64,000 bases of DNA from Streptomyces sp. ICBB 8177 (GTDB lineage Bacteria; Actinomycetota; Actinomycetes; Streptomycetales; Streptomycetaceae), in assembly GCF_003144095.1 (NCBI RefSeq), contig NZ_NSKH01000024.1:134455-198454 (forward strand), written 5' to 3'. The position numbers and the translations under genes were made by a program. Below are positions 43,056 to 59,756 of this stretch, piece after piece. The notes beneath the pieces are model-generated. The model was not told the origin of the DNA and did not search any database. It worked only from the letters and a program-made list of their open reading frames with translations. The stretch's first letter is position 1; each line of letters begins with the position of its first letter.

Positions 43056-43738
43056 AACACCGCTATCCGTTCATCGTCATCGAGGGGCTCGACGGCACCG
43101 GCAAGACGACGCTACGCAAGGGCCTGTTCCGGCTCTGGGAGGGGCTCTACGGCGTCACCCCGCTGTGCGTGCTCACCACCAACTTCCTCGCGGCCGACCA
43201 GGCCGCCGCCATCGTCACCGGCAAGTACCAGCCGAACGCCGGGAACCGTGACGCCTACCTGTCCGCGATCGCGGCGGACAAGCGGGCCACGCTGGATCGC
43301 CTCGTGCTCCCTCAGCGACCGGCCCGGCCCGTGATCGCGGATCGCTGGCTGCTCAGCGAGCTGGCCTTCTTCGCCGTGAAGCACCGCATGAGGGCGTCGG
43401 AGACGTACGAGACGCTGGCCGCGCACCTCACCGCGGCCCCCGATCTCACGCTCGTCCTGGACCTGGAGACCGACGCCTCGATGAGCCGGGCACAGGCCCG
43501 CCAGGGAGACGCCGTCCGAGCCGACTGGGACGTGCACGACGTCCAGAGCCGGGTTCGGGAGACCTATGAGGCCGTGGTCACGAAGCCCGACCAGTTCCCG
43601 CTCCTCGGCGACGTGGTCCGCCTGGATGCCCGCCGCCCCCGGTCCGAGGTGCTGCTCTCCGCCTGGGACGTACTGCGCGATCGACAGCTGGTACCGCCCA
43701 TCGGCGCCCACGCGGAAGGAGGAGAGACCTGTGACTGA
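43052..43738 (+). CDS. dTMP-kinase-like P-loop kinase
   Basis: A 228-residue thymidylate-kinase-like protein. The P-loop is FIVIEGLDGTGKTTLRKGLF (about residues 7-26), with the DRW motif VIADRWLLSELAFF and a lid region LDLETDASMSRAQARQGD. The protein is diverged from true Tmk and the gene sits in a specialised operon, so a phosphorylated small molecule is a better guess than dTMP. It overlaps its neighbours on both sides (4 bp and 8 bp). Confidence 0.82.
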   Translation: MKHRYPFIVIEGLDGTGKTTLRKGLFRLWEGLYGVTPLCVLTTNFLAADQAAAIVTGKYQPNAGNRDAYLSAIAADKRATLDRLVLPQRPARPVIADRWLLSELAFFAVKHRMRASETYETLAAHLTAAPDLTLVLDLETDASMSRAQARQGDAVRADWDVHDVQSRVRETYEAVVTKPDQFPLLGDVVRLDARRPRSEVLLSAWDVLRDRQLVPPIGAHAEGGETCD

Positions 43739-44600
43739 CGGCACGAAGGCGAGGCGTCTGCGCGAGGCCCTCGACGACAGCGAGCGGAAGCACCCGCTCC
43801 TGGCGATCGGTGCGGTGAACGCGCTCGCCGCGCACGTCGCGGCGGAGGCGGGCTTCGACGCCCTGTGGGTGAGCGGTCTGGAGGTGTCCGCGGCCTCCGG
43901 GCTGCCGGACGCCAACGTTCTGGGCCCCCGGGACCTGTCCGACGTGGTCGCCTCGCTCGGCCGTGTCACCGAACTGCCTGTCATCGTGGACATCGACAAC
44001 GCGGGCGGCTCGGGGCGCACGGCGGAGCGGTTCGCGTACGACCTGATGCGCGCCGGAGCCGCGGCAGTGTGTGTCGAGGACAGCGCGTACCCCAAGTGCA
44101 ACAGCTTCGCGGCCCACCGTGCCCAGGGCCTCGCCGACCGGGACCTGCTGTGCGAGCAGGTGGGGCGCATACGGAAGACCGCCGGTGACGGCCTCGTGGT
44201 CGTGGCCCGCACCGAGGCCCTGATCGCCGGCGAGGACATGACCACGGCGATCGCCCGCGCCGAGGCGTACGCCGACGCCGGAGCGGATGCGATCCTCATC
44301 CACTCCAAGGACGCCACCGGTGACCAGGCGCGGGCCATCGGACGCGCGTGGAACCACGGCGTACCGCTGGTCAGCGTGCCCACGGCGTTCCCCGACCTGA
44401 GCGCCGCCAAGCTCGGCGAGGCCGGCTTCCGCCTCTGCATCTACGCGAACCAACTCAGCCGTGCCGCCCTCGCGGGTATGCGCACCGCCGCCCTTCAGTT
44501 CCGGCGCGGAGGGAGTTTCCGCTCCACCGTCGCGGGGTCCCTCGCGGAGGTCGGCGACCTGATGCGCGTCGGCGAACCGGAGGCGCTGTCGTGCCTCTGA
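43731..44600 (+). CDS. PEP mutase / isocitrate lyase superfamily enzyme
   Basis: A 289-residue (beta/alpha)8 enzyme. Metal-site region VIVDIDNAGG and DALWVSGLEVSAASGLPDAN are like PEP mutase. The key motif reads EDSAYPKCNS (residues 116-125): the acidic pair and final NS of phosphonate-forming PepM (EDKx5NS) are kept, but the Lys is Ser. It may make phosphonopyruvate, or hydrolyse or cleave a related 2-oxo or 2-hydroxy acid. GGAGGAGAG precedes the GTG start. It overlaps both neighbours. Confidence 0.85.
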   Translation: MTDGTKARRLREALDDSERKHPLLAIGAVNALAAHVAAEAGFDALWVSGLEVSAASGLPDANVLGPRDLSDVVASLGRVTELPVIVDIDNAGGSGRTAERFAYDLMRAGAAAVCVEDSAYPKCNSFAAHRAQGLADRDLLCEQVGRIRKTAGDGLVVVARTEALIAGEDMTTAIARAEAYADAGADAILIHSKDATGDQARAIGRAWNHGVPLVSVPTAFPDLSAAKLGEAGFRLCIYANQLSRAALAGMRTAALQFRRGGSFRSTVAGSLAEVGDLMRVGEPEALSCL

Positions 44601-45061
44601 CGCCCGAGCTGCCTCGGATCAGTGTCTCCGTGAAGGCGGCAATCGTGCGCGACGGCGCCATCCTGCTCCTGTCATACGACGACGAGGCCGGGTTCCACTA
44701 CAACCTCCCGGGCGGCAAGGCCCAGGTCGGCGAGGACCTCCGCCAGGCCGTGAACCGCAAGGTCGCGCAGGAGACCGGCCTGCATGTCGTGGCCCGGCGT
44801 CTGCTGTGTGTCGTCGAGTACGTCCCCGAGTCGTGGCAGGGCGAGTTCGGGGACGTACAGAAGGTTCAGGTCAACTTCCTCGCCGAGCAGGTGGACGACG
44901 CCGAGCCGCGTATGCCGGAACCGCCGGACCCCATCCAGGTGGGCTTCGAGTGGGTTCCGCTGGAACGTCTGGGCGACGTGTACCTGCTGCCCCGGATCAA
45001 CCGCCCGCTGTCGGCGGCGTTGAGCGGGAAGCTCGCCGACCCCTTCGTGGACAGGTGGTGA
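44591..45061 (+). CDS. NUDIX-fold protein with degenerate Nudix box
   Basis: A 156-residue NUDIX-domain protein. The Nudix box reads GGKAQVGEDLRQAVNR then KVAQETGL: compared with GX5EX7REUXEEXGU, the first Glu of REU is Lys and the first of the EE pair is Gln. Two metal ligands are thus altered, so it may bind rather than hydrolyse a nucleotide, or use other residues. The GTG start overlaps the end of the preceding gene by ten bases. Confidence 0.8.
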   Translation: MPLTPELPRISVSVKAAIVRDGAILLLSYDDEAGFHYNLPGGKAQVGEDLRQAVNRKVAQETGLHVVARRLLCVVEYVPESWQGEFGDVQKVQVNFLAEQVDDAEPRMPEPPDPIQVGFEWVPLERLGDVYLLPRINRPLSAALSGKLADPFVDRW

Positions 45062-45066
45062 CCTTC

Positions 45067-45732
45067 ATGGATCCAACGCTGAAGGATCTGCAGGAGTGGC
45101 TACTGCGGGAGCACTCAGGGACGGTCTGTGCCGACCGGCTCCACGTGATCGCCGCCGAGCTCGCCGACATGTCCGCCGGCGGCGTGCCGGGCGCCGTGGT
45201 CGAACTCGGCTGCTACAGGGGCGCGATGGCCCTCTGGATCCGTAGCGTGCTCGACTCGCTGGGCGACCGCGAGCGCCAGATCCACGTCTACGACTCCTTC
45301 CAGGGCATGCCCGCGCCCGGCGCCGAGGACTCGGACCACCTGGCGGCGGGCGAGCTCCGGTCATCCCCGGACGACGTGCGCGCCACGCACGCGGCCTGGG
45401 GCAAGCCGGCGCCGGTCATCCATCCGGGGTGGTTCGACGAGACCCTTCCCAAGGAGCTGCCCGACGAGATCGCGTTCGCCTACCTGGACGGCGACTTCTA
45501 CGACTCGACCCTCACGGGACTCACGCACTGCGTCACCCGCCTGGTGGCGACGGGGGTGCTGCTCGTCGACGACTACGCGGACACGGCGGTCAATCCACGA
45601 GCCTGGGACGGGCTCCCCGGGGTGAAGCGCGCCTGCGACGCGTACTTCGGCGCGCCGTCGCCCGTGACCGTCGTCGTGGGCGAGGGTGATCTGGCCTTCG
45701 GCCGGTACGAGAAGCCGGGGTCCCTCGGATGA
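45067..45732 (+). CDS. TylF/MycF-like methyltransferase family protein
   Basis: A 221-residue class I SAM-dependent methyltransferase related to macrocin O-methyltransferase TylF. It shows VVELGCYRGAMALWIRSVLD, HVYDSFQGMPAPGAEDSD, AFAYLDGDFYDSTL and LVDDYADTAVNPRAW, the last carrying Asp residues that bind Mg2+ in the family. These enzymes usually methylate sugar hydroxyls; here the acceptor is unknown. GTG 45058 (overlapping the preceding stop) is an alternative start. Confidence 0.85.
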   Translation: MDPTLKDLQEWLLREHSGTVCADRLHVIAAELADMSAGGVPGAVVELGCYRGAMALWIRSVLDSLGDRERQIHVYDSFQGMPAPGAEDSDHLAAGELRSSPDDVRATHAAWGKPAPVIHPGWFDETLPKELPDEIAFAYLDGDFYDSTLTGLTHCVTRLVATGVLLVDDYADTAVNPRAWDGLPGVKRACDAYFGAPSPVTVVVGEGDLAFGRYEKPGSLG

Positions 45733-46652
45733 GCGCAGTCCTCGTGGTGCGCGGAGCGGCGGATGCGGGTGCGATCCGCCGCGCGCTGCCAGCCGTCCCC
45801 GTGCACGATTTGCTGGACCTGAACTGGCCTCTGCCAGCCGACGCGGCCGTGGTCGTCCTGCGTTCCGGTGTCCGACTCGGCGAGCGGGAGCTCGACGCAC
45901 TGCCTCGCCTGCGGCACGTCGTACGGACCGGCTCCGGCATCGACCACATCGACGTGAGCGCCCTCCAGCGTCGTGGGATCACGCTGCACCGCAACGCCGA
46001 CGCCGGCGCAGCCGCTGTGGGCGAGTGGGTCCTCGCCGCTGCCCTCGCCCTGGCCCGGCGGATTCCCCTGGGTCAGCACGCGCTCATGCTCGGCCGCCAC
46101 GAGAAGGAGGCGTGCATGGGTGTCTCACTCGGCACCCTGGCCGCAGGCGTCTGGGGCGCGGGCCCGGTGGGGCTGGCCGCCGGCCGGGCCCTCGCCCCAC
46201 GTGTGGCACGCACGGCCTACGCCGCATGGCCGTCGAATCCCCCCGGTCTGCGGGTGGTGTCGCAAGCGGCGCTCATGGAGCAGTCGCAGGTGCACGTGGT
46301 CGCCCTGCCACTGCGTGCCACGACCCGGCAATTCATCAGCGAGGAATTCCTGGCACGCGTCGCTCCGCAGCAGCCCCTGCTGATCTGCGCCGGGCGGCTG
46401 GAGACTCTCGATGTCTCCGCCTGTCTGCGGGCGTTGGCGGACGGCGGACTCTCGGGCCTCGCACTCGACCCGGTCGAGCGGGAGCACCTACCGCTCCTCA
46501 CCGGCTCCACGGTGCCGCTCAACCTCCTGGCCTCGCCCCACATCGGCGCCCAGCGGTCCGACGTGCGCGGAACGCTCGACCGATGGGCCGTCGATCTCCT
46601 CAGGGAGATCACCGCCGACGACGAGATCCTCATCGAAGGAGGCCGCCGGTGA
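45729..46652 (+). CDS. D-isomer 2-hydroxyacid dehydrogenase-like protein
   Basis: A 307-residue dehydrogenase-like protein. The substrate-side region has VVLRSGVRLGERELDALPRL and RTGSGIDHIDV. The Rossmann glycine region reads GVWGAGPVGLAAGRAL. The catalytic Arg/Glu/His of the family are probably in ICAGRLETLD, LDPVERE and ASPHIGAQ. In this operon the natural idea is reduction of the 2-oxo acid made by the PEP-mutase-like enzyme, such as phosphonopyruvate to phosphonolactate. Four-base overlaps join it to both neighbours. Confidence 0.82.
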   Translation: MSAVLVVRGAADAGAIRRALPAVPVHDLLDLNWPLPADAAVVVLRSGVRLGERELDALPRLRHVVRTGSGIDHIDVSALQRRGITLHRNADAGAAAVGEWVLAAALALARRIPLGQHALMLGRHEKEACMGVSLGTLAAGVWGAGPVGLAAGRALAPRVARTAYAAWPSNPPGLRVVSQAALMEQSQVHVVALPLRATTRQFISEEFLARVAPQQPLLICAGRLETLDVSACLRALADGGLSGLALDPVEREHLPLLTGSTVPLNLLASPHIGAQRSDVRGTLDRWAVDLLREITADDEILIEGGRR

Positions 46653-47515
46653 ACCCATCAGCACAGCTGCGCCGGGAGATCGCTGACGGAGTCGCCCGGG
46701 AGCTGCTCGTCTCCGGCCTGGCTCATGAGGTCTGGCTGGAGGGAGCGCTCGCTTGCGGCTTCGCCCACGCGGCCAGCGACATCGACCTGCGCGCCATCGT
46801 GTACGGCGACCCTCCGGTGTGGGAGTCGCGCATCGTGGACGGCGTCCGTGTCGACCTCCAGGCGGCGGCGCCGCAGCAGGCGGAGGAACTCCGACACCTG
46901 CTCCGCTCCTTCGACGTCCGCCGCGATGACCTCGGATCGTTTCGCCGAGTACGCGCCTCGATGCACGACCTCATGTGTCTGCGCACCGCTCTCTCGTACG
47001 GCTCCGGACGCTGGGACCCGGTGCTCGATGCCGGGGAGCGCCAGGGCTACCGACGCTGGTCGGTCGCCGACCAAGCGGAGGTCGCGGCGAGCCTCGCCGA
47101 GGACCTCACCGGCCTCGTCGAAGACGGCCTGGCCGAACCCGCCCGCGTCGTGTGCCGGAAGCTGGAGACCTGCGTCACCGCGCTCGAGTGCGCGGCGGCT
47201 GGTCATCCGGTCCTGGGCGACAAGTGGCTGCCGCTGCTTGCTGGCGCTCCGTTCGATCCGCCGATCGAGCCGGCCCACACAGAGACGTGGGAGTGGTTCC
47301 GCCCCGTTCAGCGACGCGTGGCCAGAGCGCTCCTGGGCTGCTGGCCCGTCGACGACCAGCTGCAGAAACCTCCCAACCTGGTTGCCCCTGACGCCGGCTG
47401 GCTACCCCAGCGGTACGCCGACGGGTGGTTCCTGCGCCGCGGCGACGTCCACATCCCCATCACCGGCGGACAACTTCTCGGGTGGCTGTCCACGGTCTCC
47501 ACCGATGGCGCGTAG
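46649..47515 (+). CDS. nucleotidyltransferase-like protein
   Basis: A 288-residue protein with the minimal nucleotidyltransferase signature VWLEGALACGFAHAASDIDL (about residues 28-47) giving the DxD pair, then a helical C-terminal half. It differs from the island's other nucleotidyltransferase (38418-39041). It may attach a nucleotide to a hydroxyl or phosphonate of the pathway intermediate. The GTG start overlaps the dehydrogenase stop (GTGA). Confidence 0.78.
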   Translation: MNPSAQLRREIADGVARELLVSGLAHEVWLEGALACGFAHAASDIDLRAIVYGDPPVWESRIVDGVRVDLQAAAPQQAEELRHLLRSFDVRRDDLGSFRRVRASMHDLMCLRTALSYGSGRWDPVLDAGERQGYRRWSVADQAEVAASLAEDLTGLVEDGLAEPARVVCRKLETCVTALECAAAGHPVLGDKWLPLLAGAPFDPPIEPAHTETWEWFRPVQRRVARALLGCWPVDDQLQKPPNLVAPDAGWLPQRYADGWFLRRGDVHIPITGGQLLGWLSTVSTDGA

Positions 47516-47545
47516 ACCACGCCTCTCCTCCTCAGGAGTCCTCTG

Positions 47546-49405
47546 ATGCCCGTCACCCGCACCGCCCCCATCGACCTGGAGAGTCTCTACGCCCCGCTGT
47601 CGAGCACCGGGCCGGACACGGCTGTCTCCGTCATCCTCAAGCTCCGCGGGGAGACCTGCGACATCGACTGCCTGTACTGCTTCGAGAAGCGCAAGGAGTC
47701 ACCGGGCGGCGCCCGGATCAGCGCGACACAGGTCCACCGCCTCGGTTCGATCTTCTCCGGGCGTCCCCTCAGCGTCGAACTCCACGGCGGCGAGCCCCTG
47801 ACCGCCGGCCGGGAACGGATCGCGGAGATCCTGGACGCGCTCGCCACACAGCCGAACGTCATCCGCGTGAGCCTCCAGACCAACGGCCTCCAACTCGACG
47901 ACTCCTGGCTGGACCTGTTCGAGCGGCACTACCCGGAACTGGAGATCGGCATCTCCCTCGACGGGGACGCGCTGGGGAACTCGTGGCGAGTGGGCTACGA
48001 CGGCCGCCCCACCTACCCGCGAGTGGTCGAAGCCATGAAGCTCCTCGGCCGTCGGGAACGCCGCGTCGGCGTCATCTGCGCCGTCACCCCGTACGTCCTC
48101 GGCCGGGCCTCCGAGGTCATGGAGCACCTCGCATCCTTTCCCGCCGTGACGACGGTCAGTCTTGTGCCGTGCTTCGACGCGGCGGTCACCCAGTCGACCT
48201 CAGTGGTCGGATCTCGTGCGCCGACCAGTCGGGCACTCCAGCGAAGGGCCATCGGCCCCACCGGCCCGGCCTGGGCCGTCACGCCTCGTCAATACGCCGA
48301 CTTCGTGTTGGAGGCCGCCCACCACTGGGTCGCCGACGGCGTGTTCCGCCGCGTCAAGCTGGAGCCCGTCGTGTCCGTCATCCGCCGCCTGAAGGGTCTG
48401 GGGACCCGTTCCTGTCACTTCTCCGATTTGAAGTGCGACCATGTCCTCACCCTCTATCCCGATGACCGCCTGGGAAGCTGTGACGAGCTGCCCTGGCCGC
48501 AGGCCGGCCTCGCCTCCCTCGGCGACATCCACACCGAGGCGGACGTGGCCAGCGCCCAGGGCGGCTCTGCCTTGCTCCAGCAGGCACGCTCCCTGGTCAC
48601 GAAGTGCACGACCTGCGACTACCGCGACACCTGCGGCGCAGGCTGCCCGGCGGTCCGGGTCCGCTTCGCCGCCGCAGGCGACGAAGACGCGTACTGCGAC
48701 CACCGCATGCGCCTGATCGACGGCGTCGCCGCCCTCCTCGCCCAGCCAGACCTTCCGCCCGGTGCCGCATGCTCCCGGTTGCGCTGGCGTCCCGTCCGCC
48801 CCAACAACATGCACCACGTCACCGCCTTCCTGGCTCGCTGGGACGACCCCACCGCCCCCCGCTCGCCCGCGCGTCTCCAGGTCAGTGCCAACGGGAACAT
48901 CAACACGGTCGGCCTCCCTGGCGTGCACGAGGCAGACGATCTCGACCCCCACCATCCCCAGTGGTACGAGGGCATCGAGCCCGGCATCCGCCCGGTCGTC
49001 GACGCGCTCACCTCAGGCTGGAACACCGTCACCTATGACAGCTGCCAGGGCCACGCCTACGCCGACCTCCACGGAGCCGAGCCCCGGTTCCTCTCGGTCG
49101 GCATCCTGCCGCGCGACCGCGCCGAGTACGCGCGTACAGCGGCGCGCCTGTGCCATGCCGCCAGCCGAGCCGAGTCCTCCCTGCCCGGGGCGTGTTCGCT
49201 GGTCCTCGGTCGCGGCGAACTCACGTGCCGCACCACCGGCCGGGTGTATCCGACGCTCGACCTCTATCTCGTGTCCACTGCCGGCACCACGTCGGCCGAG
49301 TACTTCGAGGACCTCGCCCAAGCGGTGCACGTACTCACGGTGGCCCTGGCCGAAGCCGCCTCTGCCCCGCCCTCCACCTCCTGCGCGTGCGGAGGCGGGC
49401 AATGA
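47546..49405 (+). CDS. radical SAM/SPASM peptide-modifying protein with extra C-terminal domain
   Basis: A 619-residue radical SAM enzyme. The SAM-cluster motif CDIDCLYC is at residues 38-45, with ELHGGEPLTAG. A SPASM region at about residues 290-395 has CHFSDLKCDH, GSCDELPW, CTTCDYRDTCGAGC and YCDHRM, enough for auxiliary [4Fe-4S] clusters. Beyond it is a region of about 210 residues (starting near RPNNMHHVTAFLARWDDP, with WNTVTYDSCQGHAY and a CACGGGQ end) that I cannot assign. AGGAG is seven bases from the ATG. SPASM enzymes of this sort usually crosslink or rearrange ribosomal peptides. Confidence 0.9.
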   Translation: MPVTRTAPIDLESLYAPLSSTGPDTAVSVILKLRGETCDIDCLYCFEKRKESPGGARISATQVHRLGSIFSGRPLSVELHGGEPLTAGRERIAEILDALATQPNVIRVSLQTNGLQLDDSWLDLFERHYPELEIGISLDGDALGNSWRVGYDGRPTYPRVVEAMKLLGRRERRVGVICAVTPYVLGRASEVMEHLASFPAVTTVSLVPCFDAAVTQSTSVVGSRAPTSRALQRRAIGPTGPAWAVTPRQYADFVLEAAHHWVADGVFRRVKLEPVVSVIRRLKGLGTRSCHFSDLKCDHVLTLYPDDRLGSCDELPWPQAGLASLGDIHTEADVASAQGGSALLQQARSLVTKCTTCDYRDTCGAGCPAVRVRFAAAGDEDAYCDHRMRLIDGVAALLAQPDLPPGAACSRLRWRPVRPNNMHHVTAFLARWDDPTAPRSPARLQVSANGNINTVGLPGVHEADDLDPHHPQWYEGIEPGIRPVVDALTSGWNTVTYDSCQGHAYADLHGAEPRFLSVGILPRDRAEYARTAARLCHAASRAESSLPGACSLVLGRGELTCRTTGRVYPTLDLYLVSTAGTTSAEYFEDLAQAVHVLTVALAEAASAPPSTSCACGGGQ

Positions 49406-50121
49406 TCCACATCGCCGAGACTCTGTCCATCCGTACTGTGGAGGGCTTCCTCAAGCCGGACGAGATCGAGCGACTCAACCTCGTCATGGACGACACACTC
49501 GGCTCCCTCGGGCGCGACTGGTACGGCACGGCCCGCCGCACCACCATTCACGAGATCCCCGGTCACTCCCCCGCCGAGGCGCAGGACGTCTACGAGCCGG
49601 CCGGCCGGATCGAGATGACCGAGATCCCGTACGAGGCGACCGCCCTCCTCGACCAGGCCCTGAAGCTCCACGTGGCCGCGATCACGCGCACGCTGCCGTC
49701 GGTCACCGGCCACCGGCCGTGGATCTACCTCGAATACGGGGCCGGCCAATACATCACCGCGCATGCCGACGGTATCGCCCCCGATCCCCTCACCCGTCCC
49801 CGCCAGATCGCCGCCGCGACGGTCACGCTCACGGACATCCACGACACCGGCGACGCGTTCTACGTGGAGACCACGGGCAGCGACGCCGTCTGGACCGCCG
49901 ACGAGGCGCCGACCGAGGCGGGTTACGCCCAGGGGATGCGTTTCGCACACGACGGGACGGACATGTCCTCCCGCTGGTTCCGCACCATGCCCCGCACCCG
50001 ATGGAGCGTCGCACCCGCTCCCGGCACGCTCGTGGTCTTCGGCAGCCAGCTCGTCCACGGCACCGAACCTGTCCGCGCTGGCCGCGTTCGCAAGTTCCTC
50101 ACGCTCCTCGTCTCCGAGTAG
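49402..50121 (+). CDS. 2OG-Fe(II) oxygenase family protein
   Basis: A 239-residue prolyl-4-hydroxylase-like oxygenase. The iron ligands are His121 and Asp123 in ITAHADG and His219 in LVHGTEPVRAGRVRKF, where the following Arg would bind 2-oxoglutarate. The core strand GTLVVFGSQLVHG is typical. Its ATG overlaps the radical SAM gene stop (ATGA). It probably hydroxylates the peptide at 50212-50373 or the attached small molecule. Confidence 0.87.
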   Translation: MIHIAETLSIRTVEGFLKPDEIERLNLVMDDTLGSLGRDWYGTARRTTIHEIPGHSPAEAQDVYEPAGRIEMTEIPYEATALLDQALKLHVAAITRTLPSVTGHRPWIYLEYGAGQYITAHADGIAPDPLTRPRQIAAATVTLTDIHDTGDAFYVETTGSDAVWTADEAPTEAGYAQGMRFAHDGTDMSSRWFRTMPRTRWSVAPAPGTLVVFGSQLVHGTEPVRAGRVRKFLTLLVSE

Positions 50122-50211
50122 GAAGCTTCGCCGCCATGACCGGCCCCCGCGGCCCGCCCCGCAGCGCCCTCCCCCCGACTCACGGCCCCGACCCAGAGGA
50201 GACAGCGAGCA

Positions 50212-50373
50212 GTGGCAGAAGACAAGACGTTCGACGAGTTCCTGGAGGCGGTCGCCTCCCTGCGCGACAGCGACCCCGTGCGCACCACCGCGCACACCTC
50301 CAACGCGGCCACCGAGACCTGGCTGGCCACCACGGTGCAGCACGACGCCGCTGAGCCCACCACCGAGTCCTGA
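50212..50373 (+). CDS. precursor-like peptide (53 residues)
   Basis: A 53-residue peptide gene between the two oxygenase genes. It starts at a GTG with AGGAG about ten bases upstream. It begins MAEDKTFDEFLEAVASLRDS, an acidic amphipathic helix typical of a RiPP leader, and continues as a Thr/Ala-rich tail that includes TETWLATTVQHDAAEPTTES. The only Trp is in TWLATT. There is no Cys, and no FxSxx ending as in Fxs systems. The position and small size make it the likely substrate or carrier peptide of the operon. Confidence 0.72.
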   Translation: MAEDKTFDEFLEAVASLRDSDPVRTTAHTSNAATETWLATTVQHDAAEPTTES

Positions 50374-50430
50374 CCCGCCACGGGGCCGGGCCCGTCCCGG
50401 TCCGGCCCCGTTCCACCCCCGGAGCCCCAG

Positions 50431-51321
50431 ATGAGCGCTCTCTCCCCGGAAGCCCCGGTCGCCCTCGATGGCATCACCGACCACCAGCGCCTACAGACCA
50501 GCCGTATCGCCTCCGTACTCGGCAACCGCCTCGGCTCATCCGCCCTCGACTACGTCGTGGGCCACCACCTACTCGAAGGCGCCGAACACGCGGCGCGCGC
50601 CCGGCACGGGGATCGCCTCGCCTGGTACCGCCGTACGACGGTACGAGACCTGACCCACCTGTCAGCCGGCCCACACCTCGTGCTCAGCCCGTGTCCCGCA
50701 GACCTGCTCCGCTCAGAGATCTCCGAAACCGCGTATTACCTCATCGGCCCCGACACCAACCCTGCCCCACCCGAGGCCCTCGGCCTCGTTGGTGCCGCGA
50801 TCGCCTCCGCGACCGAGCACGGCTTCGGGACCCTGCTCACCCAGCACGCCCCCGTCGTCTGCCTGCTCAACCATCGCCGACTCGACGAGACTCTCCACAG
50901 TTGGGCCCTCACCCGCCTCCCGGGCACCGTCTTCACCGACTACACCGCCCAACCCGAGGTCCTGGCCCGTGACCTGATCCACGAGGCCGCCCACAACTGG
51001 CTCAACGACGCCCTGGCCGCGTACGACGTGAGCCTCCCCGCCGACGTCACCTTCTTCTCACCCTGGCGGGGAACTCCTCGTCCCGTCTACGGCTTCCTTC
51101 ACGCCTGCTGGGCCTTCTCCCTCACCGTGATGTACGTACGGAAAGCACGGCGCAGCGCCACAGGCGCCGTCGCACCCTTCCTCGACGCCTTCCTGCGCCA
51201 GCAGGCGGCCCAGTTCGCTGCCACGGCCGAGTGCTTGGATCAGGCCCTCGCGTACGTGCCGACAAACGAAATCCGTGAACGCATCGGCCGAGCAGTCGGC
51301 GAGGTCGTGGGTCCCGCATAG
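50431..51321 (+). CDS. HExxH-motif peptide beta-hydroxylase candidate
   Basis: A 296-residue protein with DLIHEAAHNWLNDAL, placing HEAAH at residues 184-188. It resembles the HEXXH putative peptide-modification proteins now described as 2-oxoglutarate-dependent peptide beta-hydroxylases, which are encoded next to RiPP precursors. N- and C-terminal parts are helical. It follows the small peptide gene by 57 bp and closes the operon. A few bases later a truncated gltX copy runs the other way. Confidence 0.82.
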   Translation: MSALSPEAPVALDGITDHQRLQTSRIASVLGNRLGSSALDYVVGHHLLEGAEHAARARHGDRLAWYRRTTVRDLTHLSAGPHLVLSPCPADLLRSEISETAYYLIGPDTNPAPPEALGLVGAAIASATEHGFGTLLTQHAPVVCLLNHRRLDETLHSWALTRLPGTVFTDYTAQPEVLARDLIHEAAHNWLNDALAAYDVSLPADVTFFSPWRGTPRPVYGFLHACWAFSLTVMYVRKARRSATGAVAPFLDAFLRQQAAQFAATAECLDQALAYVPTNEIRERIGRAVGEVVGPA

Positions 51322-51381: not shown

Positions 51382-51990
51382 CTAAGCCTGCGCGGCCAGC
51401 TTCTTGCTGGCGGCGTCAAGACGGACCAACACGCGGTCCCGGCCAAGCAGTTCCATGGACTCGAACAGCGGGAGTCCGATCGTCCGGCCGGTGACCGCGA
51501 CCCGAAGGGGCGCCTGGGCCTTGCCCAGCTTCAGCCCGTGCTTCTCGCCGACGGCGAGCAGGACGGCCTTCAGGTCGTCCGCCTTCCAGTCCGCGACGCC
51601 GGCCAGCTCGGCGGGGGCGTCCGACAGGATGTCGCCGGCACCTGCCTTCATCGCCTTGTTCCACGACACCTCGTCCTCGACCGGCTCATCGAGGAAAAGG
51701 AAGTCCACATAGCTGGTGATCTCGGAAAGCAGCGCCAGCCGGGTCTGGGCCGGGGAAGCCGCCGCCTCGAAGACGTCCTTGTCGAACGCCTCTGGCCGCC
51801 ACGGCGCGTAGGGGGCCACGAGCCACGGCGCGCAGGCGGCGGACTGCTCCGGTGACAGGGCGCGGATGTACTCGCCGTTGAACGCAGTCAGCTTCTTCAC
51901 GTCGAAGAAGGCCGGCGCTGTGTTCACGTCCTCGATCCGGAAGAGCTGCTCCAGCTCCTCGTACGGCCTGATCTCCCGGTCCTTCCCTAT
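51382..51990 (-). pseudogene. gltX: gltX fragment (C-terminal part of glutamyl-tRNA synthetase)
   Basis: About 200 codons matching only the anticodon-binding end of glutamyl-tRNA synthetase. It begins near [20 protein letters not shown] and continues through [20 protein letters not shown] to [20 protein letters not shown] and [20 protein letters not shown]. The catalytic Rossmann domain with HIGH and KMSKS motifs is missing. The upstream end joins directly to the remains of a GIY-YIG endonuclease. A start at 51927 would give a 181-residue product of doubtful use. Confidence 0.8.
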
Positions 51991-52516: not shown

Positions 52517-53866
52517 ATGCAACGGACGTCGGTGGAGCTCTTCGCGGGCGGGGGCGGGCTGGTCCAAGCCAGCACGAACACCGGCTTCCGGCACCTGCTG
52601 CTGAACGAGTTCGCGAAGAGGGCGTGCGAGACGCTTGAGGGCAATCGCTTCGAGGCGTTTCCGGCGGACGTCGATTCCGATGTGCTGGCCAAGTGGCTGG
52701 ACCAGATCGATGAGCAACGCGCGGAGGGCCTCGAAGCCGCAGGCGCCGTTGAGCGACCCCTGTACCCTCCCCTGGTCACCGGCGACGTCCGAGGGTTGGA
52801 CATGCGCTTCCTCAGGGATCGAGATGTTGACCTTCTGGCCGGCGGGCCACCATGCCAACCGTTCAGCCTTGGTGGAGTCGCGAAGGGTGACGAGGACGAG
52901 CGGAACATGTTCCCGGAGATGTTCCGGGCGGTTCGTGAGATCCGTCCCAAGGCCGTCATCTGTGAGAACGTCCGTGGGCTCCTTCGTCCGTCCTTCAATC
53001 CCTACTTCGAGTACATCAAGCGCGAGCTGTCCCTTCCGTTCGTGAAGCGCCGAAAGGGTGCCACGTGGCAGAAGCACGACCACGCGTTGCGGGAGCGGCT
53101 CGACGCGAAGGACACCGATCCGGCGGAGACCTACGAGGTCACGCAACACGCCGTGAACGCCGCCGACTACGGGGTGCCGCAGATCCGCAACCGGGTGATC
53201 CTTCTGGCGTTCCGCGCTGACCTGGGCGTGGACCCGGATCTGGTCAAGCGCGCTGTCGCGCGCACCCACTCCCATGCGGCCCTCGCGCGGACGATCCTCG
53301 ATGGCTCCTACTGGGACCGCCACAAGCAGGCAGGCGCCAAGATTCCGAAGCGCGTCATCGATCTGGTGACCTCGCGCTACGCGAACGAGCAGCTGTCGTT
53401 CGAGAGCGGGGATGAGGAGCTCCAGCCATGGCTCACCCTTCGAGACGCGGTAATGGGGCTCCCCAAGATCAACACCAGCATGTTGGACAAGACGACGGAA
53501 CAGGGCGGATTCCCCGACCACATCGGGTGGCCCGGAGCCAGGATCTACGACGGGCACACGCCCAACGAACTCGACCGACCGGCCAAGACCGTCAAGGCCG
53601 GGGTGCACGGTGTGCCCGGTGGCGAGTCGGTCATGCAGCTCGACAACTTGGTGCGTGACGAGAAGACCGGCCAGTTGCGCCCCGAGCACCGCTACATGAC
53701 CGTGCGCGAGACTGCCCGGGTCATGACATTCGGCGATGACTGGAGCATGGCGGGCCCGCGTGGTGAACGCATGAGGCAGCTGGGCAACGCGGTTCCCGTG
53801 AAGCTGGGCGAGGTGTTCACCAGCGCAGTCGCGAAAGCCCTCGACGACGCGGAACGGCGCTCATGA
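52517..53866 (+). CDS. DNA (cytosine-5) methyltransferase
   Basis: A 449-residue C5-MTase. Motif I is SVELFAGGGGL, motif IV is AGGPPCQPFSLGG with the catalytic Cys113, motif VI is ICENVRG, and motif VIII is QIRNRVILL. Motifs IX and X are in the C-terminal QLGNAVPVKLGE. A large variable region carries the target recognition domain. AGGAG precedes the ATG. The linked Eco29kI-like remnant suggests a CCGCGG-like target, but this is inference. Its stop overlaps the Vsr-like gene (ATGA). Confidence 0.92.
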   Translation: MQRTSVELFAGGGGLVQASTNTGFRHLLLNEFAKRACETLEGNRFEAFPADVDSDVLAKWLDQIDEQRAEGLEAAGAVERPLYPPLVTGDVRGLDMRFLRDRDVDLLAGGPPCQPFSLGGVAKGDEDERNMFPEMFRAVREIRPKAVICENVRGLLRPSFNPYFEYIKRELSLPFVKRRKGATWQKHDHALRERLDAKDTDPAETYEVTQHAVNAADYGVPQIRNRVILLAFRADLGVDPDLVKRAVARTHSHAALARTILDGSYWDRHKQAGAKIPKRVIDLVTSRYANEQLSFESGDEELQPWLTLRDAVMGLPKINTSMLDKTTEQGGFPDHIGWPGARIYDGHTPNELDRPAKTVKAGVHGVPGGESVMQLDNLVRDEKTGQLRPEHRYMTVRETARVMTFGDDWSMAGPRGERMRQLGNAVPVKLGEVFTSAVAKALDDAERRS

Positions 53867-54660
53867 ACGACGCCGCCGAATCCCGGCAAATGGGCTGGAG
53901 GGACAAGCCGCCGCCCGAGAGGGCCTGGCGGGGACGGCAGGGACGGACGAGGAAGGCGATCGTCGCCGAACAGGATCGTGCCGCGGGTGGTCGGGAGGGC
54001 CGCTATGTCAAGCGCAAAGACGGCGACTACGCGCTGGCCTCGATCACGCTGAAATTGTTGCCCAGGACTCGTCGGATCAGGGCCTATCTCCGCTGGTCGG
54101 AGGACGGGCGTTCGCCCGCCCTGTATGTCGGGGAAGTGGAGCACCTGACGCGTGCGGCGAATCTCGAACAGGCTTGGCGGATCGCCAAGGACCGGGGATT
54201 GGTTGGAGAGCGTCCTCTCCCGGAAGGGTCGTGGGCTTCATCCCCTGCCACGCGGTCAACAATGCGCGGGAACCGAGGCCGCGACACGGCACCGGAACTA
54301 CGTATCCGCTCACTGCTGCACCGCGAGGGTCTGCGCTACCGAGTATCGGCGCGGCCGCTTCCCGGGGTGCGGCGAACCGCCGACCTCGTCTTCACCCGCG
54401 CCCGTGTCGCCGTCTTCGTGGACGGGTGCTTCTGGCACGGGTGCCCCGATCACTGCCGCCCAGCACGCACGAACAGTGACTTCTGGCGCGCCAAGATCGA
54501 CGCAAACCGGGCCAGGGATGCCCAGACCGACCAGTTCCTGGCAGAGGCGGGATGGCGCGCCATCAGAATTTGGGAGCACGAGGATCCCGTACAAGCGGCG
54601 GGCCGGGTCGCCGCGGCCGTTCGCGACTTTGCGGCACGGAGTGATCACAACGTTCCGTGA
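53863..54660 (+). CDS. Vsr-like endonuclease with extra N-terminal domain
   Basis: A 265-residue protein. The C-terminal half (about residues 128-255) is very-short-patch-repair endonuclease: RSTMRGNRGRDTAPELRIRS, RRTADLVFTRARVAVFVDGC, FWHGCPDHCRP, DFWRAKIDANRARD and RIWEHE. The N-terminal 125 residues form an unassigned domain with a beta-rich part (YALASITLKLLPRTRRIRAY). Vsr cuts beside T:G mismatches from deaminated 5-methylcytosine; here it is coupled to a C5-MTase and a MORC ATPase. Confidence 0.88.
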   Translation: MNDAAESRQMGWRDKPPPERAWRGRQGRTRKAIVAEQDRAAGGREGRYVKRKDGDYALASITLKLLPRTRRIRAYLRWSEDGRSPALYVGEVEHLTRAANLEQAWRIAKDRGLVGERPLPEGSWASSPATRSTMRGNRGRDTAPELRIRSLLHREGLRYRVSARPLPGVRRTADLVFTRARVAVFVDGCFWHGCPDHCRPARTNSDFWRAKIDANRARDAQTDQFLAEAGWRAIRIWEHEDPVQAAGRVAAAVRDFAARSDHNVP

Positions 54661-54833
54661 TTCAGAAGATCGTCGATGGCGTCGGAGGCCCGGCGCAGGA
54701 CGATACGCCCGTCGCCGTCGCTGAACGCGAGCAAGTCGTCCCCAACGTTGATGCCGGCCTCGGCCAACAGCCCCAACGGTAGTTCGACGCGTCCATCGGG
54801 CTCTACGGATACCTCGGCGGGTTCACGGATCAC
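54645..54833 (-). CDS. AbrB/SpoVT-like small DNA-binding protein
   Basis: A 62-residue product from the GTG at 54833 (GGGAG nine bases upstream). The swapped-hairpin core reads AEVSVEPDGRVELPLGLLAE then AGINVGDDLLAF and GRIVLRRASD, typical of AbrB/MazE-type domains. The frame is open to a TTG at 54947. It lies opposite to the defence operon, overlapping the end of the Vsr-like gene, and could repress the downstream promoter or be half of an antitoxin pair. Confidence 0.6.
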   Translation of the reverse strand: MIREPAEVSVEPDGRVELPLGLLAEAGINVGDDLLAFSDGDGRIVLRRASDAIDDLLNHGTL

Positions 54834-55104
54834 GGGAGGAGTCTCCCAAGGACCGCCGGCGTCTGCCACCGACGCTGCGGATCGTCGGGGGACCTTGCGA
54901 TTGCGACGGTTGGCGACTGGATCCCGCAACGTGCCGTAGACCCTCAAGTGGATGGAGTGGCAGGGAACTTACCGCCGATTGTCAGTGGCGCCCTCTACCC
55001 TCTTCATCACGCGTACGGCTCTACCCGAGCCGCGCGCCGAAACGCTGCCCGCGGCAGGGCTTCCTTCGGCGTGCCCACGCGAGACGAGGACAGGGGGTCC
55101 ACCT

Positions 55105-57480
55105 ATGAAGATCACTCCTTCCGCGCGTGTGCTGCGCATGCTCGGTGAGATCGAGTTCGACGAGTGGCAGTGCATCGCGGAGCTGATCGACAACGCCTTC
55201 GACGACTTCACGGAGATCCATCGATCCGGGACCCCCTGGGCAGGCGGGTATCGCGTCAGCGTCGAGCTCCCCGACTCCGCGCAGGGCCAGCTCGTGATCA
55301 CCGACACCGGTCGCGGCATGACGTACGACCGGCTGGAGCGGGCCGTGCGGGCCGGCTGGTCGGGTAACGACATGCACGACAAGCTCGGCCTCTTCGGCAT
55401 GGGGTTCAACGTCTCGACGGCGCGGCTCGGCAAGCGCACGCGCGTCCTCACCACGCGCCAGGGCGACACCGAGTGGATCGGTGTGGAGATCGACCTGGAC
55501 CGCATCGGGGACGACTTCGAGGCCGAGGACATCACGGAGCCGAAGGCCGATCCCAACGAGCACGGCACGCGTATCGTCATCAGCCGCCTGCATCCCACGC
55601 GCGCTCGATGGCTGCAGAAGAACGGCTCGGCCCTGCGTAACATCCTGGGACAGGTCTACTCCTGGATCTTCCTGAACCGTCCGTTCGAGCTGTGGGTCGG
55701 CGGCTTCCAGGTGAAGCCTGTCCGGCACTGCCGTTGGGGAGACGACCGCTCGGTCCTCTACAACAACAAGGAGCGCATTCCCGCCTACATCGAGATCGAC
55801 CAGAAGCTGGAGAACGGTCTCGCCTGTGGTGACTGCGGACAGTGGCAGCTCACTGATCGCGACGCCTGCGAGGACTGCGGGAGCGATCGGCTCACCGTTC
55901 GTGAGCGCCGGGTGCACGGGTGGCTCGGCATCCAGCGTTACATGCACAAGCACGATTATGGAATCGACTTCCTGCGCAACGGCCGCAAGATCCTCCGCTG
56001 GGACAAGCAGCTGTTCACCTGGCGCAACCCTGACGGAGCGGTGGGCAACGAGGAGCCGGAGTATCCGGTGGACCTCGCCCACCAGGGTGGCCGCATCATC
56101 GGGGAGATCCACCTCGACCACGTCCCGGTCACGTACCAGAAGGACGCCTTCGAGTACGGCGACCGCAGCTGGCGCTCGGCCGTCGAGATCGTAAGGGGGG
56201 TCGCGCCGCTGCTGCCCCAGCGCGCGGCGAACCTTGAGTACGAGGAGAACACCAGCCCGCTCGCGCTCCTCTTCAAGGGATACCGTCGCAACGACGCCGG
56301 TCTGCGGTACCTGGTCCCGGGAGACGGCCGCAAGCCGATCCACGACGACACCCGTCGGTGGGGACATGAGTTCCACCGGGGCAACCCCGACTACCAGACC
56401 GATGAGCGCTGGTGGCAGGCGGTCGTGGACCACGAGGCGACCAAGAGCAGGGGCAAGAACGCGAAGGCGGCCGCCGTCACCCCGGGAAAGCCCGACGAGG
56501 CGGCCGTGATGGAGGCGCTTGGTTTCGACGGCGCGGAGATCGGCAGTCCGAGTTCCCCCGCGACCGATCCGGACGAGACGAAGCCCGGTGCCCAGGCGCA
56601 GCCCCCGAAGGACGGCGAGTCCGCTCCCGCCGCGCCGACCCCGGAGAAGCGTAAGGAGACGCGGCAGGAACGCGTCACGCGCTACATGGAGAACTCGACC
56701 ACCTATCCGTCCCTGAGCCGTTCCTTCGGCCACCCGCGCGTCGGCTTCGTCGAGGTCGAGGCGCGTCGGCTCACGGTGGGAAGCCTGACCGACGAGAACC
56801 TCCACCCCACTCCCGTCCTGCTGGACCAGCGCGGCGGCAACACTCTCGTGGCATTCCTCGACCTCGAGCATCCGATCTTCCAGAGGTTCGGAGCGGACCC
56901 GGCGGATCTGCTGCTCGCGGAGATCGCCGTGCTGCTCAGGGTGCAGACGAGTTCGGAGTGGAGCCACTCGGAGCTCATCGCGGCGATCCGGGCGGAGTCG
57001 CTGCCCGCCAGCGCTCTGGATGCCGAGATGATCAGTGCCGAGGCCAAGGAACTGCTGGCTGAGGTCCGTCGCCGGATGGCGTCCGAGCTGGACCGCGCCG
57101 GCGAGCCGGAGAAGGCGTTTCAGTTTCTCTCGCCCGATGAACTCACCCACACCGAGCACACCATGATCGCCAACGGCAAGGTCACCCGTACGACCGACCT
57201 CGGTGCGAGCGGTGAGTTCCTGCTGCATGTGCCCGCCCTTTTCCTGGTTCGTCTCGTCGAGTCGCTGCCGTCGCTGTTCATGGACAACCGCGTCTTCCAG
57301 GGTGTCTACGAGGGTGTCGCCTCCGCGTCCGCGCGGCGGCTCAGCCTCGCGCGCACGGTCGGTTACCTCTCCGATGTCGCGACGCAGGCGACCTACGCCG
57401 GGGCCAGCCTTCCGGACCAGCTGCTGCGGACGAGGCTGAGTATTCGTCTGCTGGCCGACGACCTCGCGGAGGAGAAGTGA
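55105..57480 (+). CDS. MORC/MutL-like GHKL ATPase of a restriction-type system
   Basis: A 791-residue protein. The GHKL ATPase domain has the N-box CIAELIDNAFDDF, DTGRGMTYDR and GLFGMGFNVSTARLG. An S5-like domain follows, with a zinc-knuckle pair CGDCGQW and CEDCGSDRL (about residues 238-260), then a charged linker (about 450-525) and a helical C-terminal region. Bacterial MORC homologues encoded with C5-MTases and Vsr are thought to remodel or loop DNA. AGGGGG lies eight bases before the ATG at 55105. The stop overlaps the helicase start (GTGA). Confidence 0.88.
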   Translation: MKITPSARVLRMLGEIEFDEWQCIAELIDNAFDDFTEIHRSGTPWAGGYRVSVELPDSAQGQLVITDTGRGMTYDRLERAVRAGWSGNDMHDKLGLFGMGFNVSTARLGKRTRVLTTRQGDTEWIGVEIDLDRIGDDFEAEDITEPKADPNEHGTRIVISRLHPTRARWLQKNGSALRNILGQVYSWIFLNRPFELWVGGFQVKPVRHCRWGDDRSVLYNNKERIPAYIEIDQKLENGLACGDCGQWQLTDRDACEDCGSDRLTVRERRVHGWLGIQRYMHKHDYGIDFLRNGRKILRWDKQLFTWRNPDGAVGNEEPEYPVDLAHQGGRIIGEIHLDHVPVTYQKDAFEYGDRSWRSAVEIVRGVAPLLPQRAANLEYEENTSPLALLFKGYRRNDAGLRYLVPGDGRKPIHDDTRRWGHEFHRGNPDYQTDERWWQAVVDHEATKSRGKNAKAAAVTPGKPDEAAVMEALGFDGAEIGSPSSPATDPDETKPGAQAQPPKDGESAPAAPTPEKRKETRQERVTRYMENSTTYPSLSRSFGHPRVGFVEVEARRLTVGSLTDENLHPTPVLLDQRGGNTLVAFLDLEHPIFQRFGADPADLLLAEIAVLLRVQTSSEWSHSELIAAIRAESLPASALDAEMISAEAKELLAEVRRRMASELDRAGEPEKAFQFLSPDELTHTEHTMIANGKVTRTTDLGASGEFLLHVPALFLVRLVESLPSLFMDNRVFQGVYEGVASASARRLSLARTVGYLSDVATQATYAGASLPDQLLRTRLSIRLLADDLAEEK

Positions 57481-59147
57481 GCGCCGTCTTCCTCTCGGCG
57501 GACGAGTTGCTGAGGGGAGGGCCAGCGGGTCTCACGCATGCCGTCGAACGGGCCCTCTGGTACCTCGGCTTCAACGACGTGCGTGTCATCGACGGCGCCG
57601 GCGACCAGGGCGCGGATCTCTTGGCGGTACGCGGTCGGGAGCAGTGGGTCTTCCAGTGCAAGTGGAAGGCTGGAGGGAAGGTCGACCGGAGCGGTGTCGA
57701 CGACCTTGAGCGCGCGCGTACGCGCTACCGCGCGGACAAGGCCATCCTGGTCACCAACACCGACATCAACGCGGCGGCGGAGGCCCGCCGCGTGGCGCTC
57801 AACGGAGTCGGCGTGCCGATCACCGTCTGGCACGGGGCGACCCTGCGGTCGATCGGGGACCGCATGCCCGAGACCGTTCCCGCGAAGTACGCCCTGCGCC
57901 CGTACCAGGCCGAGGCGGCGGACGCGGTGGTCCGGGACCTCGACGCCAACAGCACCGCGCTGCTCGTCCTCGCGACGGGTCTGGGGAAGACGGTGGTGGG
58001 CGGGGAGATCATCAGCCGTCACCTCAAGACCAATCCGAACGCCAGGATTCTCGTCGTCGCGCACATGAAGGACCTCGTCGCGCAGCTCGAGAAGGCGATG
58101 TGGCGGCACATCCCCAAGTACGTTCCCACGCGCCTGCTCACGGGAGAAAGCCGACCCGAAAGCCTCGACGGAGTCGTGGTCGGAACGGTCGAGTCCGTTC
58201 TCAGTGCCGTACGCGTGGGCTACCGACCCGACCTCATCATGATCGATGAGACGCATCACGTGGCCGAGACCGGCAGGTTTGCGGAATTGCTCGACCTGTG
58301 TGGGAATGCTGAGCAGTTCGGCGTGACGGCGACACCCTGGCGCGGCGACAAGTTCGACATCACCTCCCGCTTCGGATATCCGAGCTTCAAGATGGGCATC
58401 GCGGAGGGTATGGCCGCCGGCTTCCTCTCCGCTGTCGACTACCGGCTGTACGTCGACAACGTCGACTGGAACGTCGTCCGGGACGCCAGCGTGCACGGTC
58501 AGTCGATCAAGGACCTCAACAAGTCCCTGTTCCTGCCGCAGCGCGACGAGGAGATCATCGAGCACTTCCGTGAGGCGTGGCGGACCACGACGGAACCGAG
58601 GGCCATCGTCTTCTGTCAGACCATCGAGCACGCCGAGCACATGGCCCGGTTGTTCGCCTCGTCCGACGCGGCGTGGGCCAACGCGTCCTTCCTGCACAGC
58701 GCACTCCCGCGGCAGCGACGCCAGGTCCTGCTGAACGAGTTCCGGCTCGGCCGGGTGCCGGTGATCACGTGTGTCGATGTCTTCAACGAGGGTGTCGACG
58801 TCCCGGACGTGAACCTCATCGCCTTCCTGCGGGTCACACACAGCCGGCGGATCTTCGTCCAGCAACTCGGCCGCGGACTCCGACTCAGCCCTGGCAAGGA
58901 GGCCCTGAGGGTCCTCGACTTCGTGACCGACATCCGCAGGGTGGCGGCGACCTTGGACCTCCGGCGATCGCTGGAGGCCCAGGAGAGCGAGCACCTGCGC
59001 GTACGAATGCCGCACGCCTCCCGTATCCAATTCAGCGACGAGACCGTCGGGTCGCTGATGGACCACTGGATCCAGGACGCGGCGGACCTTGAGACCAAGG
59101 CGGACGAGGTTCGCCTTCAGTTCCCTCTGACGACTGGAATCGAATGA
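57477..59147 (+). CDS. Mrr-like nuclease / SF2 helicase fusion
   Basis: A 556-residue protein. The N-terminal 110 residues are a restriction-endonuclease-like domain with GDQGADLLAVRGREQWVFQC, giving the D...QxK catalytic pattern of Mrr. A superfamily 2 helicase follows: motif I ATGLGKT, motif II DETHH, motif III TATPWRG, and motif VI QQLGRGLR. It is coupled to the MORC gene upstream and to the next gene by four-base overlaps. It probably translocates on and cuts unmodified or invading DNA. Confidence 0.9.
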   Translation: MSAVFLSADELLRGGPAGLTHAVERALWYLGFNDVRVIDGAGDQGADLLAVRGREQWVFQCKWKAGGKVDRSGVDDLERARTRYRADKAILVTNTDINAAAEARRVALNGVGVPITVWHGATLRSIGDRMPETVPAKYALRPYQAEAADAVVRDLDANSTALLVLATGLGKTVVGGEIISRHLKTNPNARILVVAHMKDLVAQLEKAMWRHIPKYVPTRLLTGESRPESLDGVVVGTVESVLSAVRVGYRPDLIMIDETHHVAETGRFAELLDLCGNAEQFGVTATPWRGDKFDITSRFGYPSFKMGIAEGMAAGFLSAVDYRLYVDNVDWNVVRDASVHGQSIKDLNKSLFLPQRDEEIIEHFREAWRTTTEPRAIVFCQTIEHAEHMARLFASSDAAWANASFLHSALPRQRRQVLLNEFRLGRVPVITCVDVFNEGVDVPDVNLIAFLRVTHSRRIFVQQLGRGLRLSPGKEALRVLDFVTDIRRVAATLDLRRSLEAQESEHLRVRMPHASRIQFSDETVGSLMDHWIQDAADLETKADEVRLQFPLTTGIE

Positions 59148-59743: not shown

Positions 59744-59756
59744 ACGGGGCTCCGCC

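Follow-up and report, generated by a model that had tools for sequence, protein, structure and literature searches.

Among the RiPP systems described so far, triceptides that carry His motifs are among the closest to the locus reported here. In PMC11002830, HaaB joins His C2 to the C-beta of Ala, YhhB joins His C2 to the C-beta of Arg, and MscB links Phe C4 to the C-beta of Ser. PMC12636437 describes beta-hydroxylation of Asp and His by HExxH enzymes once the cyclophane has been formed, and backbone cleavage by PflC/PosC as well. We have analysed a window of Streptomyces sp. ICBB 8177 (by which we mean the whole stretch of 64,000 nucleotides) that encodes a 53-residue peptide together with three candidate maturation enzymes of known kinds: a radical SAM, an HExxH and a 2OG protein. 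As in the His-motif triceptides (HaaB/ScaB on His-Ala-Ala, YhhB joining His to Arg; PMC11002830), a precursor with an aromatic-x-x triad is encoded next to a radical SAM protein of the SPASM type, and in our locus the triad begins with His. In contrast to those systems, the present triad is His-Thr-Ser and a second, Trp-x-(Ala/Ser/Thr), may follow it; the maturase falls below the curated family cut-offs, and the core sits in mid-peptide ahead of a near-neutral tail. With ChlA/ChlB/ChlH (PMC12636437), the locus shares the pairing of a radical SAM with an aKG-HExxH enzyme for one precursor, the latter belonging here to TIGR04267, and a fold match to ChlB (Z 31). It differs from the ChlA/ChlB/ChlH system in that the enzymes are separate genes, that the HExxH protein reaches only E 0.46 to ChlH, that the radical SAM protein has an extra C-terminal domain, and that 2OG, TylF and kinase genes are present in addition. 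The HTS triad also recalls the F-x-S triad of FxSxx-COOH peptides (FxsA/FxsB), with His for Phe, and FxsB is the best cyclophane-maturase model among the matches listed; however, the FxsB cut-off is not reached and no precursor family is matched, and because the peptide ends in PTTES rather than FxSxx and has no NCBIfam match at E 1, we have rejected membership of this class. As for the original suggestion that the chemistry may be new, the maturation enzymes belong to known kinds, and literature searches have pointed to no HxS or Wx(A/S/T) substrate and no gene set so rich in kinases, which is weak evidence of absence. The locus defines a precursor family outside Pfam, NCBIfam and PADLOC (the libraries run) with a sharply bounded core, so that the substrate sites of three metalloenzymes become directly testable in a small laboratory system.

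The peptide gene (50212-50373, + strand) runs from a GTG start to a TGA stop, its full product being VAEDKTFDEFLEAVASLRDSDPVRTTAHTSNAATETWLATTVQHDAAEPTTES, and is preceded by the ribosome-binding site AGAGGAG (50195-50201, +) with a spacer of 10 bases to the GTG; comparable purine-rich stretches lie 5' of the homologues. Codon usage marks the frame as coding (a home-made gene finder based on codon log-ratios scores it at 30.4), and its GC3 is 0.94. The 2OG oxygenase gene (49402-50121) precedes it, and the HExxH gene (50431-51321) follows. Frame, start codon, ribosome-binding site and flanking genes thus agree with the original prediction, which had proposed a RiPP-like precursor with an acidic, leader-like half and had hinged on a conserved ORF at the same place in related clusters. 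Homologues have indeed been found: about 35 loci, almost all of them from Streptomycetaceae, have one next to these enzymes. Of these, 19 of the 20 named-genome loci found via the 2OG protein carry one, and in the twentieth the contig stops 26 bases past the 2OG match. The frame at 50212-50373 is a genuine gene under selection. No match has been obtained in NCBIfam (E 1), Pfam (E 0.1) or PADLOC (E 0.001), and consequently the peptide falls outside the FxSxx-COOH, lasso and Cys-rich precursors listed there, in line with the lack of such features pointed out before. Two details have had to be corrected. The peptide contains two His residues, H28 and H44, and not only the one in QHD, which is H44 and is replaced by Pro in 13 of the 17 close orthologues; and the gene is not missed by annotation in the two annotated relatives seen, S. 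clavifer (WP_330321467.1) and K. cathayae (WP_153471719.1), where it is labelled as a hypothetical protein.

Nei-Gojobori differences have been computed over the 136 pairings of 17 distinct orthologues, which were chosen for closeness, with divergent homologues excluded. The leader, residues 2-22 (50215-50277, +), which contains FDEFLEAVASLR, has a dN/dS of 0.22 and varies in amino acid at 7 of 21 codons. It is followed by a constrained core, V23-A39 (50278-50328, +), with the sequence VRTTAHTSNAATETWLA and a dN/dS of 0.06, and by a near-neutral tail of residues 40-53 (50329-50370, +) with a dN/dS of 1.52; the stretch after the Trp position measures 8-20 residues in the homologues. The boundary at residue 39 was chosen after viewing the alignment, and an earlier cut at W37 has given 0.22 for the leader, 0.09 for the core and 1.29 for the tail. 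Synonymous change is low in residues 23-39 too (pS 0.05), which leaves few events behind the ratio for this stretch. How differently core and tail vary in amino acids is independent of this ratio, and it is the difference between 1 of 17 and 13 of 14 varying codons that delimits the core. The modified part of the peptide is hence most likely the conserved middle stretch and not the tail. The opposite had been proposed originally, with a core from TWLATT onwards that included QHD; everything beyond residue 39 evolves near-neutrally, for which reason the tail has been rejected as core, and the stretch that is constrained had not been highlighted. The suggested alignment of homologous clusters does reveal a conserved leader and a variable tail, as envisaged, but the conclusion that the tail would then be the core is not supported: the likely core is part of what is conserved, so that the rule would mis-assign it, and the usual equation of a variable tail with the core can fail. 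Purifying selection of this strength would fit a binding partner too, i.e., a small protein that stays unmodified and serves the enzymes as a regulatory or structural component. Conserved core residues adjoining radical SAM and HExxH peptide hydroxylase genes are the usual layout of RiPP precursors, and the conserved His, Ser and Trp with the near-neutral tail behind them follow this layout, which makes an unmodified partner highly improbable.

Two triads lie inside the constrained core, H28-T29-S30 (50293-50301, +) and W37-L38-A39 (50320-50328, +). Across 16 divergent homologues, whose rows are related so that the counts are not independent, T26, H28 and S30 are invariant, position 29 holds Thr in 14 homologues and Ser in the other 2, and W37 is kept in 15, the most distant (L076) having Met; the spacing between His and Trp is fixed. 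Residue 39 is Ala, Ser or Thr in 14 of the 16 (Arg in L075, Gln in L076); in columns 38 and 40-45, these three amino acids account for 1-9 of the 16. As a matter of sequence pattern, a triceptide triad is therefore present as H-(T/S)-S throughout and as Trp with A/S/T two residues on in 15 and 14 of 16, respectively, and the conservation of H28, S30, W37 and residue 39 lets HTS and WLA resemble aromatic-x-x motifs of three-residue cyclophanes. We take the peptide for a genuine RiPP precursor that is very likely worked on by the radical SAM and aKG-HExxH enzymes. That it is, more specifically, a cyclophane-type precursor, with a core crosslinked by the radical SAM enzyme and hydroxylated by the HExxH and 2OG enzymes and with leader and tail outside the core, appears to us the probable reading, with a good deal of room left for others. 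In its favour we count the constrained core with its conserved triads, the radical SAM and HExxH genes of every distinct cluster viewed, the coincidence of the peptide and this HExxH family in 3 genomes of the class sample, the ChlB and TIGR04267 matches, the correlation of HTS peptides with the 2OG gene, the hairpin behind the peptide gene, and the precedents cited above.

The radical SAM gene, absent from the original prediction, is located two genes upstream of the peptide (47546-49405, +), overlaps the start of the 2OG gene by four bases, and encodes a radical SAM/SPASM peptide maturase of 619 residues. The protein matches PF04055 (34.7 bits, cut-off 29.5) and the SPASM model TIGR04085 (28.4 bits, cut-off 27) and keeps C38, C42 and C45 as well as the later Cys of the SPASM region; such a gene stands in the precursor operon in 17 of 17 distinct clusters. 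Its extra C-terminal domain (48746-49402, about residues 400-610) stays below every Pfam cut-off and is hardly covered by the fold list of the whole model; the motif YDSCxGH occurs in the 17 long forms aligned, and L075 and L076 have a short protein devoid of both domain and motif. Among the 25 of 47 NCBIfam matches listed, the cyclophane-maturase models are all below cut-off, with FxsB (96.8 of 370 bits) ahead of YhhB (92.8 of 445) and AmcB (86.9 of 425). The best NCBIfam match is the sulfatase maturase model TIGR03942, and as its cut-off is likewise unmet (123.5 of 349.45 bits), membership of the anaerobic sulfatase maturases has been rejected. The predicted structure (mean pLDDT 80) matches the sulfatase maturase fold with Z 32.2 (rmsd 2.9, 340 aligned) and the cyclophane synthase ChlB with Z 31.1 (rmsd 3.1, 340 aligned), a tie given a margin of about 1, and the best solved structure by sequence profile is ChlB (E 8.6e-28). 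This tie and the sub-cut-off maturase, along with the missing Trp of L076, the Arg and Gln at residue 39 of L075 and L076, the faint match to ChlH and an operon in the window in which neither protease nor exporter is seen, speak against a cyclophane. A RiPP precursor on whose core the radical SAM enzyme performs other chemistry, such as Ser/Thr oxidation of the sulfatase-maturase kind, epimerisation or an H28-W37 crosslink, with no three-residue cyclophane, is the most serious alternative, if an unlikely one. Sulfatase maturase as best NCBIfam match and tied fold match (Z 32), the invariance of S30 and T26, and the fixed His-Trp spacing, which would also suit a direct link between the two, argue for it. 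Against it stand the position of ChlB as best sequence match among solved structures, the suitable third residue in the triads at both conserved aromatic positions, and the precedent (PMC12636437) of a cyclophane peptide with an aKG-HExxH partner.

The HExxH gene (50431-51321, +) encodes an aKG-HExxH-type peptide beta-hydroxylase of 296 residues that belongs to TIGR04267 (66 bits, cut-off 40) and has H184, E185 and H188 invariant in 15 of 15 rows; the E value of 0.46 to ChlH has been obtained against PDB sequences. The 2OG-Fe(II) oxygenase (49402-50121, +; 239 residues) just passes PF13640 (27.2 bits, cut-off 27) and finds no match among PDB sequences at E 1. Its gene is present in all 14 genomes with an HTS peptide and absent genome-wide, at E 1e-20, from all 3 with an HSS peptide (G025, G068, G142), a correlation that probably rests on few evolutionary events. 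More distant 2OG homologues, with about 33-38% identity over the protein, have been followed at 12 of 13 places in 7 genomes, and BLAST at E 1e-6 has detected no gene of the cluster around these 12 places, neither radical SAM nor HExxH nor any other, the exception being one weak match to a beta-lactamase-fold protein (31%, L096); frames nearby that match the HxS-peptide pattern have been taken for chance. In Streptomyces sp. I6 (L048:10001-10715), the 2OG gene matches in separate pieces, through a frame break or an assembly error, and the peptide and HExxH genes are whole.

For the cyclophane reading, which we continue to prefer, we infer the following course. Residues 2-22 would fold into a helix, serve as the leader through which the maturases are recruited, and later be removed. 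The radical SAM/SPASM enzyme would then introduce a C-C crosslink inside H28-T29-S30, from an imidazole carbon to the Ser C-beta, as modelled on HaaB (His-Ala-Ala) and MscB (Phe with Ser); W37-L38-A39 may receive another. For these sites we claim moderate confidence. Once crosslinked, the core would be beta-hydroxylated by the aKG-HExxH enzyme, and a further hydroxyl or methoxyl group could come from the 2OG enzyme, assisted by the TylF methyltransferase in clusters that have one, for which Thr29 is the best candidate because the HTS genomes have the 2OG gene and the HSS genomes do not. The tail past residue 39 may be trimmed or kept as an inert follower.

The peptide gene forms part of eleven consecutive genes on the same strand (42294-51321), 7 of whose 10 junctions overlap by a few bases, and all eleven recur in the same order in L046, L047, L078 and L080. 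Viewed widely, 18 loci have been compared (the window, L004, L046, L047, L049, L050 and L070-L081), of which L047 and L079 are the same contig, leaving 17 distinct clusters; the L081 locus and the G142 match coincide. As matches to the 2OG protein or the peptide served to choose the loci (for L081, a match to the radical SAM protein), the peptide and 2OG counts arise partly by construction, and those of kinase and HExxH genes do not. The radical SAM, HExxH and thymidylate-kinase-like genes each occur in 17 of 17 distinct clusters, the 2OG gene in 14, the TylF gene in 9 and the PEP-mutase-family gene in 8, and the accessory sets vary from cluster to cluster. The annotated plasmid L081 bears the whole cluster except for 2OG and TylF, and some other clusters encode a beta-lactamase-fold protein.

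Upstream, the operon begins with a conserved protein (42294-43055, +) that matches neither Pfam (E 1) nor NCBIfam (E 0.1) and is found in 18 of the 20 loci located through the 2OG protein. The thymidylate-kinase-like P-loop kinase follows (43052-43738, +; PF02223); its group has been defined by single-linkage BLAST clustering, in L081 by annotation (dTMP kinase), and the clade B member of L072 passes PF02223. PEP mutases have the motif EDKxxxxxNS. The PEP mutase/isocitrate lyase family protein of the window (43731-44600, +; PF13714) reads EDSxYPKxNS, as do all 8 rows (7 distinct), and reaches 199.7 bits of the 319.55 demanded by TIGR02320; we have therefore not classed it as a PEP mutase, and it represents a distinct subfamily. 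A phosphonate pathway formed by this protein with the dehydrogenase and the nucleotidyltransferase named below has been lowered in rank because EDK reads EDS in every row. The Nudix protein (44591-45061, +; PF00293) has an altered box: the canonical form is REUxEExG, and here (RKVxxETG) it is changed at usually catalytic positions, all 8 rows (7 distinct) having RKV and, ahead of ETG, either Q or D. L076 encodes a fusion of a Nudix domain with a protein kinase domain. A TylF-type O-methyltransferase (45055-45732, +; PF05711, scanned from the longer frame 44806-45732), a D-2-hydroxyacid dehydrogenase family protein (45729-46652, +; PF02826, PF00389) and a nucleotidyltransferase-fold, ANT-like protein (46649-47515, +) complete the upstream part. 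The last has kept an SDxDL motif throughout the 8 rows compared (7 distinct), and its model (pLDDT 88) finds ANT(4') and HalB in Foldseek at low TM-scores of about 0.2-0.5, which would indicate a shared fold at most. An anti-phage defence operon has been considered and rejected: the PADLOC scan of 10 proteins (TylF and regulator left out) has given only weak matches to generic folds, the best being PDC-M51B for the kinase (E 1.9e-12). A divergent HTH_31 regulator (40575-41987, -) lies beside the cluster. It adjoins an L-asparaginase gene (39515-40516, -), which is found beside the cluster in 18 of the 20 2OG-found loci at 67-98% identity.

This wealth of small-molecule enzymes, in an operon of the window in which neither exporter nor protease has been seen, would suit a scaffold or cofactor precursor like that of PQQ or mycofactocin, whose core is turned into one small molecule and finished by the kinase, nucleotidyltransferase, Nudix, dehydrogenase and methyltransferase proteins. 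The nearly invariant, non-diversifying core and the kinase-like gene of every distinct cluster point the same way. Yet the clusters are sporadic (17 of 394 family genomes), unlike a housekeeping cofactor, their accessory sets vary, and exporter genes near some of them (ABC in L075, MFS in L049 and L081) suit a secreted product, so that we hold a cofactor precursor to be improbable. Returning to the cyclophane RiPP, it is conceivable, although we doubt it, that its crosslinked and hydroxylated HTS...WxA core is phosphorylated or nucleotidylated by the thymidylate-kinase-like protein together with the ANT-like nucleotidyltransferase, or a protein kinase, and the Nudix protein. The product would then be a macrocyclic peptide decorated with nucleotide or phosphate, the decorating enzymes serving tailoring or self-protection, and kinase and nucleotidyltransferase activity on the peptide would widen RiPP tailoring chemistry.

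With respect to distribution, a 14-row peptide profile has matched 18 of 394 Streptomycetaceae genomes, the own genome included, of which 17 have been accepted; the match in G211 sits inside an open frame of 539 residues and has been put down to chance. In a class sample of 394 genomes, the same profile has found 3, one of them (G403) from another family, and a 16-row profile has recovered 1 of 3 genomes of that family, G403 itself. In 396 genomes of the phylum, the 16-row profile has yielded nothing convincing besides the own genome, four marginal matches (E 0.003-0.009) being treated as noise. An HExxH profile has picked out the same 3 genomes of the class sample as the peptide profile, 2 of them by construction because the window protein and L076 (G403) were among its rows; the family has not been found in the other genomes of this sample. 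The own genome has one peptide copy, one TIGR04267 protein and one match to the radical SAM protein (E 1e-10). A second short DNA match (83% identity, E 9e-4) has also been noted there.

Between the peptide and HExxH genes, a strong RNA hairpin is predicted (50382-50409, +; z -2.55), and 14 other loci across clades have hairpins of mostly different sequence at the corresponding position. In 12 of these 14 the z value is -2.4 or below; L049 has -1.58, and the hairpin of L050 (-0.25) is no better than shuffles. The element is possibly an attenuator or mRNA stabiliser, and may favour the peptide over the downstream enzyme. Downstream of the operon, a truncated remnant of glutamyl-tRNA synthetase (51430-51987, -) is 89% identical to residues 256-442 of the L074 gltX and lacks the N-terminal half. 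Beyond it lies a restriction-type island (52517-61124) with a cytosine methylase, Vsr, an HATPase and a ResIII/Mrr helicase-nuclease. Five genes of the island have been compared with those of L032 and L036 and show 97-100% identity, a level above the about 79-94% identity of the RiPP genes of L036 to those of the window, and this difference in sequence identity suggests that the island has been exchanged recently.
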